Source: Geodermatophilus bullaregiensis (GTDB lineage Bacteria > Actinomycetota > Actinomycetes > Mycobacteriales > Geodermatophilaceae). From it: a stretch of 64,000 nucleotides of DNA. Below are positions 633-12,100 of this stretch, one piece after another. The notes below the pieces were generated by a model. That model was not told the DNA's origin, did no database searches, and saw only the letters and a program-made list of their open reading frames with translations. The stretch covers positions 62,001-126,000 of the forward strand of contig NZ_JAFBCJ010000001.1 in the NCBI RefSeq assembly GCF_016907675.1, in the 5' to 3' direction. Positions within the stretch are counted from its first letter, which is position 1. Every line of letters starts with the position of its first letter. A program made the position numbers and the translations under genes.

Positions 633-2372
633 ATGACCGACCTGGGTACGCGCTCCGGATCCCAGATCCTCCGCACCTTCCTGCCCCAGCAGACCGCCGA
701 CCTCCGCCGGGGCATCTACCGCGTCGTCGAGTGGACCAGCGCCCAGCCGTTGGCAGTCGATCCCGATGTCATTCGCCGCCGTCTCCTCCGAGAGGTCCGG
801 CCGTGGGAGCAGGCCGGCCTCGACAACGGCGTCGCCGCCGACCTCCGCAGTGGCGCGCGGATCGAGGTCGTCGAACTCGACGAGCGTCGCGGCGTCACCG
901 TCGAGCGGTATCCCAACGTCTGGGTCTGTGACACGTGCAAGCGCATCGGCAAGCGTGCCGACCGTGCGTGCAAGTGCGGCGCCCAGCGGTGGGGGCAGTT
1001 GCACTTCGTCGGCTTCCACTCTTGTGGGGCAGTTGTCGAGCCCTTCATCCGGCGCTGTCCGGCTCACGACGACGTACGGCTCGTGGCTCCACGCAGCGCC
1101 AAGGCGTCCGACATCCGGTTCGTCTGCCCCACGTGTCAGCAGGAAGTCATGCGAGGGCTCGGCTTCAACCGGTCGTGCCCCGGCTGTGGACAGGGCGCCA
1201 TCTCCTGGAACGTGCACAAGGCCCGCAGCGTCTATGCACCTCGCGGCGCCGTGCTCGTGAATCCGCCGCGCCCCGAGCGCATGCGCGACCTCCTTGCGGC
1301 CGGGGGCGCCCGCAAGTCCCTGGAGTGGGTGGTTCAGGGCATGACGGCACGGAGCCCTGAGACGATGCAGGGCCGTCCGACTCGAGACGCCTTCCTCGCG
1401 AAGTTGCTCAGGGACGGCTTCGGCGAGGCCTTCGCGCGGCAAGCGGCCGACCTGGCACAGACCGGGGGAGAGCTCGCAGCAGACGACGCACCGGAATCCG
1501 TGACCGGCTTGGACGATGCCCAGCGCGCCGAGGCCGAGAACGAGGCCCTCGACATCGCCACGGCCCTGTCCGAGTCACGCATCACCACAGGCGACCTCAT
1601 CGGTGCCCCGGTCGACAGCGTTCTCGCTCATCGCTACGCCGACGACTATCCGGCAGCTCTCAGGACCGCCGGACTCGTGGATGTCGAACTCGTCGAGCGC
1701 TTTCCGGTCCTCAACATCATGTACGGCTACACCCGTGGAGGCGGCGAGGCTGGAGCCACCCACCTCGTGCCCTTCCGCTCTCGCCGGGGGAACGGCTACC
1801 GGTTGCACGGTGATCTCGCTGAGACAGAGGCCTACTTCGTCAGGCTCGACCCGGTGAGGGTCGCGATGTGGCTGTTGCAGCGCGGCCACCAACTGCCGGG
1901 CTTCGATGCGACCGCAGGTCCCGCAGCCGCCAGAGCCGAGCTTTTGCGAGCTACCCGCATGCCGCTGCCTGGCGACCCTCGTCCTCAGCCGACCGTCGGA
2001 TCCGACATCTTCGAGCTCGTCCACAGCACGGCTCATCGCTTCCTGCGGCAGACCGCCGTCTTCGCCGGTATCGACCGCGACGCTCTCAGCGAGTACCTAG
2101 TCCCGACACACCTCGGCTTCTTCATGTACGCAGCGGCGAAGGGGGATTTCGTCCTGGGCGGACTGCAGGCCGTGTTCGAGACGGACCTCGACGACCTGTT
2201 GACTTCCGTGGTGCGAAGCGAGTCGCGCTGCCCTCTGGATCCGGGCTGCAGTCGCGGCGCAGGTGCGTGCAACGCGTGCCTGCACGTCGGCGAGCCTTCC
2301 TGCCGAGCGTTCAACATGCACCTGAGCCGCAAGGCGCTGTTCGGTGAGCACGGCTACTTCCACCTGTCTTGA
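633..2372 (+). CDS. drmB: DrmB-family (DUF1998) zinc-binding protein
   Basis: This 579-residue protein has Cys pairs typical of DUF1998/DrmB: C99 and C102 with C113 and C115, then CPTC near residue 165 and CPGC near 182. A C-terminal cluster (CPLDPGC, GACNACL, PSCRAF) starts near residue 533, and the last part matches the DUF1998 pattern of a Cys cluster before a short tail. In DISARM, DrmB works with the DrmA helicase against incoming phage DNA. The ATG lies 9 bases after the drmA stop with only a weak SD, suggesting co-transcription. No DrmC-like phospholipase D gene follows; insertion-sequence debris does. Confidence 0.82.
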   Translation: MTDLGTRSGSQILRTFLPQQTADLRRGIYRVVEWTSAQPLAVDPDVIRRRLLREVRPWEQAGLDNGVAADLRSGARIEVVELDERRGVTVERYPNVWVCDTCKRIGKRADRACKCGAQRWGQLHFVGFHSCGAVVEPFIRRCPAHDDVRLVAPRSAKASDIRFVCPTCQQEVMRGLGFNRSCPGCGQGAISWNVHKARSVYAPRGAVLVNPPRPERMRDLLAAGGARKSLEWVVQGMTARSPETMQGRPTRDAFLAKLLRDGFGEAFARQAADLAQTGGELAADDAPESVTGLDDAQRAEAENEALDIATALSESRITTGDLIGAPVDSVLAHRYADDYPAALRTAGLVDVELVERFPVLNIMYGYTRGGGEAGATHLVPFRSRRGNGYRLHGDLAETEAYFVRLDPVRVAMWLLQRGHQLPGFDATAGPAAARAELLRATRMPLPGDPRPQPTVGSDIFELVHSTAHRFLRQTAVFAGIDRDALSEYLVPTHLGFFMYAAAKGDFVLGGLQAVFETDLDDLLTSVVRSESRCPLDPGCSRGAGACNACLHVGEPSCRAFNMHLSRKALFGEHGYFHLS

Positions 2373-2727: not shown

Positions 2728-3053
2728 GGCGTCTTCCTCGCCGCCGCGGCTGATCAGTGACGAGTTGTGGGCGTTGGTCGATCCGCTGATCCCACCCCGC
2801 AAGCCGGCCGTGCACGGCCGCACGGGCGACCACGGACCGCGGATCGGGACGTGCTCGAGGGCATCGCCTTGGTGCTCAGCACCGACGTCGGCTGGACCAA
2901 GCTGCGTACCGAGTTGGGCTACGGGTCCGGCTGGACCTGCTGGCGGCGGATGCACGAATGGTCCGACGCCGGCGTCTTCGATCGACTGCACACCGCCGTG
3001 CTCGACCGACTTGGCGAGCGCTGCCGGATGAACTGGTCCCGGGCCAGCCTGGA
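2728..3053 (+). mobile_element. IS5-type transposase remnant, left copy (frameshifted, truncated)
   Basis: This is the N-terminal half of an IS5-family transposase: RLISDELWALVDPLIPP, then after a one-base shift GRPRTADRDVLEG and VGWTKLRTELGYGSGWTCWRR. It ends at about WSRASLD, so the DDE catalytic half is missing. The two parts lie in different frames, joined near base 2822. The same 326 bases recur inverted at 6422-6747 with one mismatch seen (CCCGGG against CCCGAG). Homology reaches the putative start codon (ATG at 2719) with a 3-base difference between copies. It is non-functional as written. Confidence 0.85.
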
Positions 3054-3089
3054 TGGCGTCTCCCAGGCAGGGCCGAGCCCGCCTCCGAT

Positions 3090-3102
3090 CAATAGCCTAT
3101 TG
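3090..3102. promoter_or_regulatory. Perfect palindrome upstream of the CHAT gene
   Basis: CAATAG-C-CTATTG, six bases each side of one, lies 20 bases before the CHAT gene start and just inside the left IS remnant. It may be an operator or part of the promoter. Its size and position support regulation, but no regulator is known. Confidence 0.35.
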
Positions 3103-3122
3103 CTACCGTGTGGAGCGAAGAA

Positions 3123-5252
3123 ATGGAGAACCTCCCGCGTGACTTCACTAGTCAGGAACAGCAAGCTGAACACGAGCTCTCCGAGGGGAATCTGGAGAGC
3201 GCTATCGAGCAGTACAGAGCCCTACTGGATCGCGCGCGTCGCGAGGATCGCCTAGAGGCTCAATGGGGTTCGTGCATCAACCTGGGCCAAATCTTCCTGG
3301 AGCGCGGCCAACTTGAGGAAGCCGAGGAGTACTTCGCGACTGCACTTTCCGTAGCAACACATCTCGAAGATCCTGACCGGGAATTTGATGCGCTCATCTT
3401 TCAGAGTTGGGCCCGCATACAGTCCTTAGACCTGCAGAAGACGCGGGCCGCCATCAAAGACCTCTTAGATGTTGTGCATCTTCGAACCCGTCCTGCTGGC
3501 GACCGAGTGGATGATGCCTATGGTCTGCTCGGCTTAGGCTACTCGAATCTCGGTGCCTTAGCAGCGGGCGCAAACTTCATGAGGCTGGGCATTGAATCGG
3601 CTAAACAGCAGTCGTCCCCCCGCCTCGGGATGTGGATAGGAAACCTCGGCATCAATCTGTTGACGTCCGGCGATATCGAGGGAGCGATCGAGAACTTGAC
3701 TGACGCCATCAGACGAGAGGAGCAGCAGAATACAGGCAACAAATCTACGTGGGAGGCTGGACTGCTTTCAGCTGAAGCCCAAACTAAACGCCGGACCCCA
3801 CCCGTTGGTATTACCAAGCAGCCATCCGCTGTTGCCTTTGATGCATTGGCTGTACGAGTGTCCATGCTTGAGTCCGTCCAGGACAAGATCGACTTGCTCA
3901 AGGCCGAGCATTCCACCGTTGAGACTGCGCTCAATGACGCCATGGAGGCTTGGCCGGCACTCGATGCCTTTGCCCTCTTGGATTCAGCGAAGTCCACGGT
4001 CGGTCGCGAACTGCTCTGGCGTCGAAGATTTGAGCACTCAGGCCTTGCGGGGCTGGTTAGTGGTCCCTTCGATGCGGTGATGCATGGCTTGAAAAGTTCC
4101 CAGGTGGCCGAGACTCTCGCCCGCGAATCGCAGCGTTGCGTCATTCATCTTTATTACACGCGAGATCGAGACTTCTACGCCCTAATCGGCTACTCCGTAG
4201 GTGGTCAACCGAGGGTGGAACGGGTCCGCATCGCCACAGGCTATTTCGGTCACCTTCTTTATCGGCGCCTCTCCGCGCTTATCGACGCAAGGCGCCGAGA
4301 ACCGCTTGTCTCAATCAGTGAGGACTTGATTGACCTACTAGCCGAGTTCGGGGACGCGCTCCTGCCTGTACTTACACGAGTGGAGTGCGTTGAGCGGATC
4401 CTCATCCTGCCGTACAAGAAGTTGCATGCACTACCGCTTCACGCGTTGATGTCAAGGTACTTCAAGACTGACGCACTCTTAGACAGAGCCGAAGTTAGCT
4501 ACTCATCGTCCCTGATGGCGAATATCGCTGCACGTTCCCGCTTCGGCCCGTCTGCCCCGTCGGAGCAAAACCTCCTGTTCGCCTTCGTGGACATGGAAGC
4601 ACTCGACATTCCTGAACCGCTTGAGTGGAGCGCACTGAAGGCGCTGATTGGTGAGCCTTCTTGGTACACCCTCGTAGGGCGCGCCTCGGAGATGTCAGAG
4701 GACTTCTCGGACTTCCCCTTTCTCTTATGGTCGAGTCATGCGCTTTCGGATCCTAGCGACTGGGCGGCGAGCTACCTTGGTGCGGGACGACGGCGTCACA
4801 CTGCTTATGAGATAATGAACACCTGGCATCTCAATCACGCGGAGATGGCCATCCTCTCGGGCTGCGAGACGGGTGCTGAACGATCGACAGATGACGCAGT
4901 CGACGAGTATTTAGGTCTGGATGCCGCGGTCAATATTGCTGGCGCACGCTCAGTCGTCTCCACGTTGTGGCCTGTGGAGGAGCATCTCGCCGCTATCACC
5001 TCTCTACTGCTGGTGATCGGCGTCCTATTTCGGCGAGAGAGCCCCAGTCAAGCGCTTCGACGAGCTCAATTCGACCTACTTTCGGGGAAGTGGCGCTCCT
5101 ACCTCGTTGATATCTATTCTGAGCTTCGGGATCAACGTCCTGGAGTAAGGGGGGAGGCGCGTCGAACGCTTGAAATGCTACTTGACATCGATGCCGAGTC
5201 CTTCTCTGACATCATGGACTTCGCCGCCTATCGGTCCTTCGGTGCAGGATAA
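3123..5252 (+). CDS. TPR-CHAT caspase-like protease
   Basis: The protein has 709 residues from ATG 3123, preceded by a GGAG seven bases upstream; a GTG at 3108 is an alternative. Residues ~10-240 are TPR-like helix pairs (LESAIEQYRALLDRARRED, GQLEEAEEYFATALSVA, GDIEGAIENLTDAI). The C-terminal ~400 residues form a CHAT domain with His539 in WSSHAL and Cys581 in LSGCETG as the catalytic dyad, followed by GARSVVSTLWPV. CHAT proteases are caspase relatives; several act in phage-triggered growth arrest or death, with TPRs as partner-binding parts. The gene is clearly less GC-rich than its surroundings, which suggests transfer. Its partner and target are unknown. Confidence 0.88.
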   Translation: MENLPRDFTSQEQQAEHELSEGNLESAIEQYRALLDRARREDRLEAQWGSCINLGQIFLERGQLEEAEEYFATALSVATHLEDPDREFDALIFQSWARIQSLDLQKTRAAIKDLLDVVHLRTRPAGDRVDDAYGLLGLGYSNLGALAAGANFMRLGIESAKQQSSPRLGMWIGNLGINLLTSGDIEGAIENLTDAIRREEQQNTGNKSTWEAGLLSAEAQTKRRTPPVGITKQPSAVAFDALAVRVSMLESVQDKIDLLKAEHSTVETALNDAMEAWPALDAFALLDSAKSTVGRELLWRRRFEHSGLAGLVSGPFDAVMHGLKSSQVAETLARESQRCVIHLYYTRDRDFYALIGYSVGGQPRVERVRIATGYFGHLLYRRLSALIDARRREPLVSISEDLIDLLAEFGDALLPVLTRVECVERILILPYKKLHALPLHALMSRYFKTDALLDRAEVSYSSSLMANIAARSRFGPSAPSEQNLLFAFVDMEALDIPEPLEWSALKALIGEPSWYTLVGRASEMSEDFSDFPFLLWSSHALSDPSDWAASYLGAGRRRHTAYEIMNTWHLNHAEMAILSGCETGAERSTDDAVDEYLGLDAAVNIAGARSVVSTLWPVEEHLAAITSLLLVIGVLFRRESPSQALRRAQFDLLSGKWRSYLVDIYSELRDQRPGVRGEARRTLEMLLDIDAESFSDIMDFAAYRSFGAG

Positions 5253-6385: not shown

Positions 6386-6421
6386 TCAGCTCATCCCCCT
6401 TTCGCCCGGACGCCGACCGAG

Positions 6422-6747
6422 TCCAGGCTGGCTCGGGACCAGTTCATCCGGCAGCGCTCGCCAAGTCGGTCGAGCACGGCGGTGTGCAGTCGATCGAAGA
6501 CGCCGGCGTCGGACCATTCGTGCATCCGCCGCCAGCAGGTCCAGCCGGACCCGTAGCCCAACTCGGTACGCAGCTTGGTCCAGCCGACGTCGGTGCTGAG
6601 CACCAAGGCGATGCCCTCGAGCACGTCCCGATCCGCGGTCCGTGGTCGCCCGTGCGGCCGTGCACGGCCGGCTTGCGGGGTGGGATCAGCGGATCGACCA
6701 ACGCCCACAACTCGTCACTGATCAGCCGCGGCGGCGAGGAAGACGCC
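6422..6747 (-). mobile_element. IS5-type transposase remnant, right copy (inverted)
   Basis: This is the inverted partner of 2728-3053, encoding the same truncated transposase half with the same frameshift between RTG and RPRTAD. A possible start lies outside the identical block, near 6761. Past WSRASLD it continues SVGVRAKGG, the expected family continuation, then stops, so it is slightly longer than the left copy. Near-identity including the shared frameshift implies the copies arose by duplication or gene conversion after inactivation. Confidence 0.85.
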
Positions 6748-6898: not shown

Positions 6899-7174
6899 TT
6901 GATCATGAACGAGCCAGAGCGACCCCTGGGGATATTCCGCGCGGTGGCTACCCGCGACAGCAATGCGCTCGACCGCAACGGTAAGCCGTTCTTTCGGCTC
7001 AATTACGTCTTCGACGACCCGAGGGATGGACCCGTCTACGAGGTCCAGTTCGACGACGGAACTTGGATTCTCGCCGCGACGCCCGACTTGGACATCGAAC
7101 CGTCGAGCGATGTTGCCCGGTTCCTCAGGCGGCGCCAGCGGTCAGCAGGGCCGCCAGGTCATCCACACGCTTGA
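6899..7174 (+). CDS. Hypothetical 91-residue protein
   Basis: The likely start is the TTG at 6899, seven bases after an AGGAG; an ATG at 6905 is too far from it. The sequence (ending in YEVQFDDGTWILAATPDLDI before an Arg-rich tail) looks like a small beta-rich domain. No family is recognised. Its last 50 bases overlap the 3' end of the convergent nuclease gene, so the tail may not be conserved. It lies just outside the IS-bracketed cassette. Confidence 0.45.
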   Translation: MIMNEPERPLGIFRAVATRDSNALDRNGKPFFRLNYVFDDPRDGPVYEVQFDDGTWILAATPDLDIEPSSDVARFLRRRQRSAGPPGHPHA

Positions 7175-8351
7175 GATCTGTGACCGACACGAGATCGGCA
7201 GCAGGACGAGCCTCACTTCCCCAGGCGACGACGAAGGCGTGCGGACGCCAGGACTTGTCGACGTAGTACTCGTCCGCATCCTTCAGATAGGCGAGTGCGT
7301 CGAGGATCCCTCGGCTCTCCGCCCTCGAAGGGCTCCTCTCGGTGTACTTCACCTCGCCGATGAAGATGCGCCGGTCGGTCGTTGATTCGATGTCGACCAA
7401 CAGGTCTGGGCGAAGGTCTCGGTGAGGCAGTCGCGCAGCACGTACCACCTCGGCGAGCCGCCCGGAGGATCGAGCTGTTGCGCCGATCGACCAGAGCGAC
7501 GTCTGCCAGTAGATGCGCGCTTCCCTGTCCGCTGAGCGCAGTCGCGCGATCGGTGTTCGCGCCCCCAGCAGCCTCTCGGGCGGCAAACGGGTGAACCCAC
7601 GCCGTTCGAGTGCCTCCGCGAGGCCGAAGCCGGCAAGCAACTCGAGAAGGGTGGACGTCTCCCGCGGAGCCAGGACCCTCCGGCTGACCAGTTCCGCAAT
7701 CGTCTCCTGACTGCGGTCGTGGAACAGGTCTCGGTACAGGCGGATGAAGTCGGCCACCGGACGTCCCAGAGTCCTCGACCGGACGGCCTCCAGGTCCCGC
7801 TCAGAGAGCGAAACCGTGCGGACATCGCGCAGTTTCCGGTGTCGGAGCGTCTCACCCGCCCAGACCAGACGCTCCCAGGCGACACGACCAAGAGTTCCTG
7901 TGGGACGTAGGGACGCGGCTCTGCAGGCGGCCTCTAGGTGCTGAAGGGCCTCCCGCACGGCGCGCGCCAGCATGGTGTCGTAGCGCCGCTCGGGACGGGC
8001 ACAGACGAACAGCGTCGGGTCCCATGCCGCGTAGCGTCGCTGCACCGTGGCCGCCCAGTCCACCTGCCCGACGACCGCCCCCTGCAGTTCTTGCCGTTCC
8101 ATGCGCGCGACACTGGGGAGAGCAGGCAGAAGACGCTCCACCGCTGTCACGAGGCTGATCGTCTCGTCGGAGAGCAGCAGGTGCAGGGCCGTCAAGCGGG
8201 TCATGTCCCGTTGACGCATGCCGAACATCGATGACAAGACCGGGCGCAAGTCTTCGACCGCGGCGGCTTCGTAGACGTACCGCCACAAGTGGCGCTGTAG
8301 ACGATCCAGAGCGTCCTGCCGACTGAGCAGCGGCAGAGGCGATGGACTCAC
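7125..8351 (-). CDS. PD-(D/E)XK nuclease in McrC position
   Basis: This 408-residue protein starts at a GTG overlapping the McrB-like stop (GTGA). The first ~300 residues are helical and unassigned. The C-terminus has a PD-(D/E)XK nuclease core: D316 in LRPDLLVDIE and E333/K335 in IFIGEVKYTE, then a helix and the strand PHAFVVAWG. In McrBC, LlaJI and BsuMI systems the McrB-like motor gene is followed by the nuclease subunit, and this gene holds that position. It is probably the DNA-cutting subunit. It is too divergent to be called McrC by eye. Confidence 0.75.
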   Translation of the reverse strand: MSPSPLPLLSRQDALDRLQRHLWRYVYEAAAVEDLRPVLSSMFGMRQRDMTRLTALHLLLSDETISLVTAVERLLPALPSVARMERQELQGAVVGQVDWAATVQRRYAAWDPTLFVCARPERRYDTMLARAVREALQHLEAACRAASLRPTGTLGRVAWERLVWAGETLRHRKLRDVRTVSLSERDLEAVRSRTLGRPVADFIRLYRDLFHDRSQETIAELVSRRVLAPRETSTLLELLAGFGLAEALERRGFTRLPPERLLGARTPIARLRSADREARIYWQTSLWSIGATARSSGRLAEVVRAARLPHRDLRPDLLVDIESTTDRRIFIGEVKYTERSPSRAESRGILDALAYLKDADEYYVDKSWRPHAFVVAWGSEARPAADLVSVTDLKRVDDLAALLTAGAA

Positions 8352-9955
8352 AGATCCTGCTCGTCTTCTTCCGACCTGGCATCATCGAGCGACAGCAGCC
8401 CCGCGAGAAGCTGCTGACCGTGGTCGGACTTCTCCTGGTCCTCGTCGTCCGTGCCCGGAGCGTGACTGTCGCTCTCGGGATACAGAACCTCGCGCCTGAT
8501 GTAGCGACGAGCCTTCTGCTCGTCCTCGCCCAACAGGGCAACAAGCTGCGGTTCTACCAGGGCCTCGACCGCATCCTTCATGATCGCGGCGGGGTCTATC
8601 GGCTGGCAGGTCTCGAAGGACATGCTGAGGCGGTGCGAGATGTATCGGGCCGCATCGATGATGATGGCTGGGCCCAGCTGAGGATGGCTCAGGCGCGTCA
8701 ACCGGCGGAGGCGTTCGGCCAGGGACGGATGTCCAACGGTCGCGCGAGTCCGGAGGATCCAGTCCCAATCGGCTTCCGCGGCGGGCGCCGGCACCCGGAT
8801 GACGGCGAAGCGCCGCATGAACGCTTCGGACAAGGTGAACAGCAGGTCGCGGTCGCGCTCGTTCATCGTGGCGATCAGCCGCCACGAGGCGGGCACCCGG
8901 TAGACCTCCGTGTTCGGCGGAACCGAGGCGCCGGGCGGCACGATGCTGTAGTGCTCGCCGTCGCCGTTGACGAATGGCAGGACGACGGGCTGACCGCTCA
9001 GAACGCTGAAGAACGGACCGATGGCCTTGTCGATGTCGGCTCGGTTCAGTTCGTCGATGACCAGCCAGGAGTCTGCGTGGATGGCTTTCAATAGGAGTCC
9101 CGGGGCGAAGACGAGCCCCCCCATTCCGGTGTTCCCCGTGTTGGGGTCCAGTCGATAGCCGCCCACCGTGTCCGTCGTGGTCCAGTCCGCGGTCCCCGTG
9201 GTGACCAGCGCCGGGCCGGACAGGCCGACGGAGGTTGCGGCCTGGGCCAGTGCCACGGCGAGGGTGCTTTTTCCGGTTCCAGGCGGACCGGTGAGGATCA
9301 GATGCTTGCCGGCCCGCAGTGCCGCCACGGCGGACTGAACGACGCTCGACGGGAATCGGACGTCGGCAGCGGCGTGGAAGACCTTGTCCAAGCCGAGCGT
9401 CATGCTGGGCACAGGTAGGTCGTCCTCGGAAGCCACTCCGTGATGGAGGAGGAGTTCCTCGATCACCTCGGCACCGATGGGGTTGATCGAGTTCCGCGGC
9501 TGCGTTCGAGGATCACCGTGGTCCAACCACGACCATGGGAGAGGCTCGTCGAGCGGAAGATAACGATCGAAGATCGCCTGTCGGTCCTCGTCGCACCTGT
9601 GCACTCGGCCGATGCGTCCGACACCGAACATCACTGCCCGATCGGCGCCTACTTCGTCGATCGCCCAGTGGCAGAGGACCCAGTCGCCGGGCTGTACTCC
9701 GTCCTTGGCTGCACGAGTCGTTCTCCAGTAGTGGTAGGTCTGGCCCTCGATGTCGGCGTATCGGGACTCTCCGCTGTACAAGAACGTCCAGCAGTTCGCA
9801 TTCGGGCCGAGAAGTCCCGTTCGGAACTCTTCGTCCTCGTCGGGATACGAGCCCGCCTCCGCATCGACGGCGGCGGGAACTTGGTGGGCCGCCGCGGTTT
9901 TGGTGGGGACCAGTTCCACTTCGGCGTCGGGGGCGATGTCTTCCAGAGAAGGCAT
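8348..9955 (-). CDS. McrB-like AAA+ ATPase/GTPase with N-terminal EVE-like domain
   Basis: The protein has 535 residues, with the start fixed by a TGATG overlap with the upstream gene. Residues ~53-120 (NCWTFLY, HYWRTTRAAKDGVQPGDWV, GVGRIGRV) resemble an EVE/PUA-like fold, which in other proteins reads modified bases. The McrB-type AAA+ core follows: Walker A GPPGTGKS at 223-230, Walker B SWLVIDELNRADIDKA at 296-311 and sensor IATMNERDRD at 361-370. The D-E-x-N-R signature is typical of McrB/MoxR-like motors. It likely recognises DNA and translocates it for the nuclease encoded downstream. Nucleotide preference cannot be judged. Confidence 0.85.
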   Translation of the reverse strand: MPSLEDIAPDAEVELVPTKTAAAHQVPAAVDAEAGSYPDEDEEFRTGLLGPNANCWTFLYSGESRYADIEGQTYHYWRTTRAAKDGVQPGDWVLCHWAIDEVGADRAVMFGVGRIGRVHRCDEDRQAIFDRYLPLDEPLPWSWLDHGDPRTQPRNSINPIGAEVIEELLLHHGVASEDDLPVPSMTLGLDKVFHAAADVRFPSSVVQSAVAALRAGKHLILTGPPGTGKSTLAVALAQAATSVGLSGPALVTTGTADWTTTDTVGGYRLDPNTGNTGMGGLVFAPGLLLKAIHADSWLVIDELNRADIDKAIGPFFSVLSGQPVVLPFVNGDGEHYSIVPPGASVPPNTEVYRVPASWRLIATMNERDRDLLFTLSEAFMRRFAVIRVPAPAAEADWDWILRTRATVGHPSLAERLRRLTRLSHPQLGPAIIIDAARYISHRLSMSFETCQPIDPAAIMKDAVEALVEPQLVALLGEDEQKARRYIRREVLYPESDSHAPGTDDEDQEKSDHGQQLLAGLLSLDDARSEEDEQDL

Positions 9956-10452
9956 CAGGCGCCCTTCTGTCGCATGATCTTGACGATCCGAGCCCGGTCG
10001 CTGTGGCCGTCGCGAAGAATGATGCAGGCGGCGGAGAGTCGGGAGAGGGGGTCTGCGATGGTACGGCGAACCCGTTCCTCGACGTAATCGAGGCATGAGG
10101 GCTCCCCGACGACGATCACCGAGATGTCGGAGCCGCTGACACCGACCTGGCGCATGCGGGTCATCGTCTGCTTGAGGGTGTTGCGGTCCGCGATGCCCGT
10201 CCCTCCGATCGTCGAAGCACCTTCCCCGCCATCGAGCAGGCCCGCCAGAAGGGCGGCAGGCGCCTTCCACTTGGTGCTGTTGGCGTCGCTGAGGTTCACC
10301 TTGACGACCTCGGCGACGAGCGACTGCTCCTGCCACGTCGGTGAGCCGAGGTGCTCGACGGCGGCCAAGTAGTCCGGGGAGGCGCCGGCCACCGAGGGGT
10401 CATGCAATCGTGAGCCCCGAAAAGGTGTGTTACTCATCTCTGCGAGCTTCAT
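9955..10452 (-). CDS. Unrecognised 165-residue protein inside the restriction operon
   Basis: The start overlaps the vsr stop (ATGA) and the stop overlaps the McrB-like start (TGATG), so it is translated within the operon. No membrane segment, Cys cluster or nuclease motif is seen. The second half has alternating hydrophobic strands (DISVIVVGE, AACIILRDG) between basic helices, suggesting a small alpha/beta fold. No family is recognised. Its place between Vsr and the motor suggests a specificity or assembly subunit; this is inference. Confidence 0.8.
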   Translation of the reverse strand: MKLAEMSNTPFRGSRLHDPSVAGASPDYLAAVEHLGSPTWQEQSLVAEVVKVNLSDANSTKWKAPAALLAGLLDGGEGASTIGGTGIADRNTLKQTMTRMRQVGVSGSDISVIVVGEPSCLDYVEERVRRTIADPLSRLSAACIILRDGHSDRARIVKIMRQKGA

Positions 10453-10922
10453 TCTCCGTTCTTGAACCTTGGGGGCTTGGCCAGTTGTTCCCTGCGTGTC
10501 CTCACCAGGGAACGCAGTCGCTCGGCCGACTCACGGGCATCCTCGTGCTCCCAGACCCGGAAGGCCACCCAGTTCACTTCGGCGAGGCGCGCGTCCGTGT
10601 TCTGGTCCCTGGCCGCATTGGCGTTCAGCTTGTCCTCCCACCACTGGGCGTTGGCGCGGGGATAGGTTGCATGGATCGGACAGCGATGCCAGAAGCATCC
10701 GTCGACGAAGACGGCAATCCTAAGTGCCGGAAATGCGAGATCGGCCCTGCGGCGAACGCCCCCGACCGGCAGGGGGTAGTCCACTCGGTAACGCAGTCCT
10801 AGCGCATGTACCGCGCGGCGAAGGGCTAGTTCCGGCGCGGTGTCGATCCGTCGCTGCCTTCGCATCCTGGCCAACGCGGCCGGCGACGAGGCGCGGGGAC
10901 GGTCCGGCAAGCGTCTCGTCAC
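10449..10922 (-). CDS. vsr: Very short patch repair endonuclease Vsr
   Basis: The protein has 157 residues starting at a GTG that overlaps the methyltransferase stop (GTGA). Vsr signatures are RMRRQRRIDTAPELALRRAV, the catalytic Asp in RRADLAFP, FVDGCFWHRC, then PRANAQWWEDKLNAN and VWEHE. Vsr nicks 5' of T in T:G mismatches made by deamination of 5-methylcytosine, so it protects sites methylated by its partner. Pairing with a C5 methyltransferase is standard; being first in a chain leading to McrB/McrC-like genes is less common. Confidence 0.95.
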   Translation of the reverse strand: MTRRLPDRPRASSPAALARMRRQRRIDTAPELALRRAVHALGLRYRVDYPLPVGGVRRRADLAFPALRIAVFVDGCFWHRCPIHATYPRANAQWWEDKLNANAARDQNTDARLAEVNWVAFRVWEHEDARESAERLRSLVRTRREQLAKPPRFKNGE

Positions 10923-12100
10923 TCCTCCGGCGCCGTGGCCTCCACATGGGCCTTCATGTCGACCAGGAACTCCTCCTTGAATCGGAGTTTGGCGCGCGCG
11001 GTGCGAGAGAAAAACCCCGCAGCGGCCTTGTGGCTCAGTCGGGGGGCGGCCGTCAAGTCCACGACGCTCGGCAGGTGCTGATAGTCCTGGCGGACGGGCC
11101 ACATGGACACGTGGTGCCGCCAGACGGTTCCGGCCTCTCCGGACGCAGCGGTCGGCCAGGATGCGCCGGGGGCAAGGCGCTGCGTCTCGCCCACGATGGC
11201 CGTGCCAGGCTGTCGCAGCCGCGATCCCAGCCACTCGGCCACGCCGACGGTCACGGCGTTGCCCACCAGTTTCCAACGCGGCCCCTTGGCGCGGCCGTGT
11301 TGACCGGCCTCGGTCCAACCGGTCGGGAAGCCCTGCAACCGCTCCGCGTCCTCGATCGTCGGCGTGACGATCTGGCGGCCCACCGGCGCCCCAGGCACCC
11401 AGACGGCGGGTGGAGAGGGGATGCCCAGGGTGGAGCCGCCCTTGAGCGTGGGTACGGCGTCAGGCGCCCAGCCCAGACCTCGCAGGCCTTCGGTCCAGTA
11501 GAACCCGAAGGCGTCGGAGCCATAGAAGTCGGCCTCCGGTTCGCCGGCATCGTCTGCGAACAGGACGTAGCGAGGGTCCTCGGTGGGGCTGGCCACCAGA
11601 AGAACGCGCTGCCGTCGCTGCGGGACGCCCGAGAAGCGGGAATCCACGAGCCGATAGGCCCAGCGCAGTCCAAGATCTTCGAGTTCCCTCACGAGGTAAG
11701 CCATGGCCTTGCCCTTGTCGAGGGGCAGCATGTTGCGGACGTTCTCGAAGACGATCCACTTGGGCAGCCGGGGCTGGCTCTCGAGCAGGCGGAAGACGTG
11801 ACCGACCAAGCCGCTGTGCTCCCCGTGGATGCCCGCGGTTCGGCCTGCCTGTGACAGGTCCTGGCAGGGAAACCCGGCCGCCACGACGTCCACCGGAGGG
11901 AGGGTGTCGAGGGTGCGGACGTCGTCCGCGAGCGGAACGTCGGGGAATTGCTCCGCGAGGACGGCCTTGGCCGGGTCCCACACTTCGCACAGCAGCTCGG
12001 AGTGGATTCCGGCGCGAGCGAATCCGAGCTCCACGCCTCCGATCCCGGCGAACAAGCCCGCTACGGTCAGGGGATCCGCTGCGGATCGCTCGTCGTGCAT
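10919..12100 (-). CDS. DNA C5-cytosine methyltransferase
   Basis: From ATG 12100 the protein has 393 residues. Motif I is AGLFAGIGG near residue 15, motif IV is GFPCQDLS with catalytic Cys79, motif VI is ENV at 119-121 and motif VIII is QRRQR at 161-165. The region from ~195 to ~270 is the probable target-recognition part, and motif X-like KLVGNAVTVGVAEWLG is present. No SD precedes the ATG; a TAGAGT hexamer about 10 bases upstream could be a -10 box, which fits a leaderless transcript. TTG 12130 is an alternative start. It heads the five-gene restriction operon and would mark self DNA. The site specificity is unknown. Confidence 0.93.
   Translation of the reverse strand: MHDERSAADPLTVAGLFAGIGGVELGFARAGIHSELLCEVWDPAKAVLAEQFPDVPLADDVRTLDTLPPVDVVAAGFPCQDLSQAGRTAGIHGEHSGLVGHVFRLLESQPRLPKWIVFENVRNMLPLDKGKAMAYLVRELEDLGLRWAYRLVDSRFSGVPQRRQRVLLVASPTEDPRYVLFADDAGEPEADFYGSDAFGFYWTEGLRGLGWAPDAVPTLKGGSTLGIPSPPAVWVPGAPVGRQIVTPTIEDAERLQGFPTGWTEAGQHGRAKGPRWKLVGNAVTVGVAEWLGSRLRQPGTAIVGETQRLAPGASWPTAASGEAGTVWRHHVSMWPVRQDYQHLPSVVDLTAAPRLSHKAAAGFFSRTARAKLRFKEEFLVDMKAHVEATAPEE

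Follow-up and report, generated by a model that had tools for sequence, protein, structure and literature searches.

A Vsr-linked C5-cytosine methylase joined to an McrB-McrC type engine in a five-gene operon of Geodermatophilus bullaregiensis

Results

Five overlapping genes form one transcription unit

The window, meaning the whole 64,000-nucleotide stretch of Geodermatophilus bullaregiensis DNA that was analysed, contains five co-directional open reading frames on the minus strand that form one overlapping unit from 12100 to 7125 (Table 1). Successive genes overlap by 4, 4, 1 and 4 bases (GTGA, ATGA, a single base and GTGA), confirming the overlapping operon reported in a preliminary description of this locus. 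The text of that description left the Vsr and 165-aa genes unnamed, and both belong to the operon. All five frames are open, and the catalytic motifs of the methylase, Vsr, motor and nuclease are intact. The host genome is 5.2 Mb in one contig, and the GC content of the operon is 67% compared with 73% for the window. No second locus with the order methylase-Vsr-165 aa-motor-nuclease was found in the material searched.

Table 1. Features of the operon, listed in order of transcription (window coordinates)
Feature	Position	Strand	Basis or remark
C5-cytosine DNA methyltransferase, 393 aa	10919..12100	-	PF00145, PADLOC MTase_II; first gene transcribed
Vsr-type very-short-patch mismatch endonuclease, 157 aa, GTG start	10449..10922	-	PF03852, TIGR00632
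165-aa protein with no family detected; its position makes it a candidate third restriction subunit	9955..10452	-	
McrB-type AAA+ motor, 535 aa	8348..9955	-	AAA_5, McrB best in PDB
Probable EVE/YTH-like (PUA superfamily) N-terminal domain of motor, about residues 50-171	9443..9808	-	AF2 model
McrC-like nuclease, 408 aa, GTG start	7125..8351	-	Conserved PD-(D/E)XK motif, AF2 fold

Several other genes were observed around the operon. Beside it lies a TPR-CHAT gene (3108-5252) bracketed by two transposase-like frames (window 2767-3255 and 6391-6708), which are on opposite strands and share the same starting sequence. DISARM-like DrmA (8.2e-94) and DrmB (6.6e-31) are encoded at genome 59549-62623 and window 633-2372, on the strand opposite to the operon and about 10 kb from it. 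About 12 kb beyond the 3' side of the operon, at genome 54638-57555, a further McrB-type motor is encoded, with an ORF after it. This motor is of the lineage found in genomes G158 and G055 and adjoins an MzaA-like sigma-factor-type protein.

The methylase and Vsr belong to a widespread pair

The methylase matches PF00145 in Pfam (E 6.2e-41) and, over the whole protein (residues 11-388), the PADLOC model MTase_II (PDLC03324, 429 bits). Its motifs GLFAGIGG, GFPCQDLS, FENV, PQRRQRV and GNAV are intact, and a PF00145 profile search identified it as the sole PF00145 protein of the host genome. We considered whether it could be the DrmMII methylase of class 2 DISARM and rejected this assignment, since among PADLOC models its best match is MTase_II (4.1e-129) and not DrmMII (1.1e-19). 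The Vsr protein matches PF03852 (5.7e-15) and TIGR00632 (108 bits, above the curated cut-off) and retains the core FVDGCFWHRCP.

Relatives of the methylase in Nocardia, Burkholderia, Sinorhizobium and Rhizobium have an adjacent Vsr and lack the motor-nuclease engine, and the methylase-Vsr pair is widespread. The target-recognition region of the methylase is 53-65% identical to those of relatives in other hosts, making it as conserved as the catalytic core. Judged from these alignments, the operon methylase and its relatives are therefore likely to share a target motif. On a Mycolicibacterium arabiense plasmid (L036:6950-8614), a C5-methylase and Vsr are fused in one 554-aa frame.

The motor and nuclease resemble McrB and McrC

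The motor matches AAA_5 in Pfam (5.9e-17), and its best relative of solved structure in the PDB is E. coli McrB, both by single sequence and by profile (profile E 5e-22). It carries Walker A (GPPGTGKS, residues 223-230), Walker B (IDELNRAD) and an NxxD motif (N365-D368). The Walker motifs, N365 and D368 are invariant across the motor alignment.

The nuclease received no name from Pfam, NCBIfam, PADLOC or PHROG profiles. Its P315, D316, E333 and K335 (PD...ExK) are invariant in 18 homologues. In an AF2 model (pLDDT 76), a helical domain with a beta stalk is followed by a PD-(D/E)XK domain. When this model was searched with Foldseek, McrC chains occupied ranks 1-3 (best 6hz4_M, 1.9e-7) and the BsuMI YdjA-YdiS model 9a5m was fourth (5.6e-4). 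A second structure comparison (VIA) with McrC gave Z 9.8 and an rmsd of 14.6 over 260 residues, so that the relative placement of the domains in the model is uncertain. The nuclease profile had no true match among PDB sequences; fold search alone found McrC. The preliminary description had assigned a methylase, an McrB-type motor and a nuclease of PD-(D/E)XK type to a single operon, and the PF00145 and AAA_5 matches and the four invariant nuclease residues bear this out. It had also staked its reading on a PD-(D/E)XK core in the modelled nuclease and a PUA/EVE-like fold in the motor; that core is present, and neither model went against it.

The N-terminal domain of the motor is probably EVE/YTH-like

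Pfam EVE (PF01878) did not match the motor, either in the full protein at E <= 0.1 or in the isolated domain at E <= 10. In related archaeal and Bacilli motors (L037, L047, L054, L055, L059 and L063), Pfam EVE lies shortly upstream of the AAA domain, separated from it by about 50 residues. When aligned with these EVE relatives by hhalign, motor residues 81-169 were collinear with their EVE, although the match was weak (E 0.15). The same approach with divergent haloarchaeal reader domains aligned the linker alone.

As the preliminary description had proposed, we modelled the product of 8348-9955, taking its N-terminal residues 45-180. The AF2 model (pLDDT 71, pTM 0.70) was built from an alignment that contained EVE rows, and its fold is thus not fully independent of the comparison above. 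Structure search matched the model to MJECL36, Atu2648, PH1033, THYN1 bound to 5mC DNA and YTH domains, with Z of 7.4-9.9 (9.9 to 2p5d, 8.8 to 1zce, 8.2 to THYN1 and 7-8 to YTH). The fold lists contained EVE/YTH entries; B3 was not listed, which does not exclude B3. The N-terminal domain therefore probably has an EVE/YTH-like fold of the PUA superfamily, a conclusion for which a single AF2 model of moderate confidence is the main support. The EVE/PUA-like segment of the preliminary description stands as to fold, and its extent changes from residues 53-120 to about 50-171. Also among the best matches to the model was the N-terminus of the DISARM helicase DrmA (PDB 7s9v residues 13-127; Z 9.5, 20% identity).

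The 165-aa protein matched nothing in PADLOC, NCBIfam or PHROGs, no Pfam match reached the cut-off, and a pattern search found no common nuclease motif. Relatives sought in plasmids, viral contigs and 394 genomes of the class yielded nothing but apparent chance matches (the top two loci were checked). The protein weakly resembles the small ORF that precedes the G158 motor (shuffle p 0.02, rank 18 of 879). Sequence comparison established no homology to that ORF or to the N-terminal domains of other motors.

Related motors occur with and without a methylase

An alignment-based scan of 84,980 species for relatives of the motor yielded 80 loci. Motors of this type are present in about 35 of them, in most cases with the nuclease adjacent. 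The N-terminal part varies among these motors and may be EVE, MrcB_N (L022), MTaX1 (L024, L068, L070), kinase + CHAT (L050) or absent. The L050 motor (L050:1123-5586), which comes from Chloroflexi, belongs to this family and carries both a protein kinase and a CHAT domain as fusion partners. Seven EVE-bearing relatives (L037, L047, L054, L055, L057, L059 and L063) are two-gene cassettes, and no methylase was seen in their operons in the ORF lists.

A methylase directly precedes the motor in Brevibacillus (L060) and Sphingomonas (L072) and lies near it in L040 and L086; all four motors have other N-termini. In Priestia (L040), a methylase, an annotated NgoFVII-family restriction enzyme and Vsr come directly before the motor-nuclease pair. 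In Syntrophomonadaceae (L086), the pair is preceded by a methylase and one further ORF. Because the Priestia methylase has an NgoFVII-family enzyme of its own, and L086 looks similar, a motor-nuclease pair need not serve the neighbouring methylase.

G158, a genome of the same family as the host, has the order methylase-methylase-small ORF-motor-nuclease-Vsr, with an engine that differs from that of the host operon. One of its methylases is of the same subfamily as the operon methylase (47% identity overall, 55% in the target region), and the Vsr proteins are 53% identical. By sequence, this is a second joining of the methylase subfamily to an McrBC-type engine.

The scan also returned a conserved pair from Acidimicrobiia and other actinobacterial MAGs, in which another protein comes after a short McrB-type motor of 310-317 aa (L041, L045, L048; also L042-L044, L046, L071). 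At the three loci checked (L041, L045, L048), the recurring neighbours showed no PD...ExK nuclease motif. These are possibly domesticated McrBC pairs.

Discussion

The operon brings a Vsr-linked C5-methylase together with an engine of the McrB-McrC type. It is best read as a hybrid of the widespread methylase-Vsr pair with an EVE-type motor. Its parts are all known and their combination is uncommon.

The closest characterized parallel in working is LlaJI of Lactococcus pNP40 (R1 motor, R2 nuclease, two methylases), in which genes for C5-methylation, an McrB-type motor and a PD-(D/E)XK McrC-like nuclease also share one operon and the McrBC-type enzyme beside the methylases cuts unmethylated DNA (PMC1459862). 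The preliminary description had presented the meeting of a methylase with McrB as a paradox, for which LlaJI is a published precedent. However, LlaJI has two C5-methylases for an asymmetric site, whereas the host operon has one and adds Vsr and the 165-aa gene. The reader of the LlaJI motor is a B3 domain (PMC12707154), whereas the reader here is EVE-like by model. RE_LlaJI (PF09563) had no match in the host genome at E <= 0.1, and the control, B. subtilis, scored above the cut-off.

The three-gene restriction cassettes of BsuMI and LlaI also place a small ORF before the motor and the nuclease after it, and the match of the host nuclease model to 9a5m adds to the likeness with BsuMI. Their motors, LlaIB and BsuMIB, have 337-343 aa and lack the long N-terminal part (PMC1459862), in contrast to the 535-aa motor with its fused EVE-like domain. 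We tested for membership in LlaJI or BsuMI by looking for two methylases, RE_LlaJI and a short motor, and found none of the three. The label "LlaJI/BsuMI-like" given in the preliminary description thus describes the working principle and not membership.

EVE/YTH-McrB type IV systems, for example Thermococcus gammatolerans McrBC, resemble the operon in having an EVE/YTH-like domain on an McrB-type motor together with an McrC-like nuclease (PMC7641849; PMC12707154). Unlike the operons of the EVE-bearing relatives that we found, the host operon couples a methylase and Vsr translationally to the motor. E. coli McrBC is similar in motor and nuclease, by profile and fold, but has a DUF3578-type 5mC reader and no methylase, and it cuts methylated DNA. 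A census from 2024 describes a methylase-associated McrB branch, which it calls surprising for type IV systems (PMC11090510).

How might such an operon work? We lean, somewhat beyond even chances, towards restriction-modification by a methylase-coupled McrBC-type system operating as LlaJI does. From its motifs, the methylase would mark one fixed motif in the host genome with 5-methylcytosine, leaving Vsr to repair the T:G mismatches that arise when this base is deaminated. The gene order and overlaps put the methylase ahead of the cutter. McrB-like subunits would form a GTP-driven ring, with the McrC-like nuclease bound through its stalk. The EVE-like domain would load this ring on incoming DNA at the motif lacking host methylation, with the 165-aa protein as a putative site-specific subunit in loading. 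The ring would then translocate, and the PD-(D/E)XK subunit would cut. We counted in favour of this reading the single overlapping transcription unit that begins with the methylase, the intact catalytic motifs, the relationship to McrB and McrC by profile and model (the BsuMI YdjA-YdiS model among them), the methylases that immediately precede the L060 and L072 motors, and the methylase-associated McrB branch of the 2024 census (PMC11090510). Counted against it were the Priestia and L086 arrangements and the EVE-bearing relatives, two-gene cassettes in whose operons the ORF lists showed no methylase, as expected of type IV cutters, which depend on modification.

Those relatives give weight to a second reading, which we regard as possible and the less probable of the two, in which the operon houses two separate functions. 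The motor-nuclease pair would be a type IV cutter whose EVE-like domain reads a foreign base (5hmC, a glucosylated base or 5mC in a different context, for example), while the methylase-Vsr pair would do no more than mark the host, in a context to which the reader is blind. EVE domains usually read modified bases, and the modelled fold matches readers of this kind, including THYN1 bound to 5mC DNA and YTH domains. Among EVE fusions in defence systems, EVE-McrB is also the most common (PMC7641849). The stand-alone two-gene habit of the EVE-bearing relatives, with no methylase seen in the operon, favours a type IV cutter. However, it is hard to see why genes without a joint function would overlap by 1-4 bases at all four junctions between methylase and nuclease, and in G158 this methylase subfamily is paired with another McrBC-type engine. 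This translational coupling and the second methylase-McrBC union favour restriction-modification. In addition, the operon shows no other restriction enzyme against which the methylase could protect.

It is unlikely that the methylase also, or mainly, serves the DrmA/DrmB pair, with the motor and nuclease functioning independently within a shared defence island. A C5-methylase is part of class 2 DISARM, DrmA and DrmB are nearby, and the operon methylase is the only one of PF00145 type, the type covered by our search, in the genome. Against this, the methylase matches MTase_II far better than DrmMII, and DrmAB is separate and on the opposite strand. Least credible of all, and in our view very improbable, is a decayed or inactive remnant left after transfer between genomes; no second five-gene copy was found, the GC content is low relative to the window and transposase-like fragments are nearby, but the five frames are open and every catalytic motif is intact.

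Within the restriction-modification reading, we raise as a tentative suggestion, less probable than that reading itself, that a modified-base reader of the PUA/EVE fold has come to serve a methylase-coupled motor as its self/non-self sensor. It would either load the motor on the unmethylated motif only, or bind the 5mC mark made by the operon itself and block the motor. If this is true, the EVE fold would be a reader whose output is inverted relative to that in type IV enzymes.

The nuclease points to a widespread McrC-like family that Pfam and NCBIfam searches did not name. McrBC relatives cut methylated DNA when alone and unmethylated DNA when accompanied by methylases, as in LlaJI. Because the operon joins a modified-base-reader fold typical of lone cutters to a methylase-Vsr pair typical of methylase-linked systems, it offers a natural test of the switch in recognition polarity, and it poses the question of how a cutter spares its own marked DNA.
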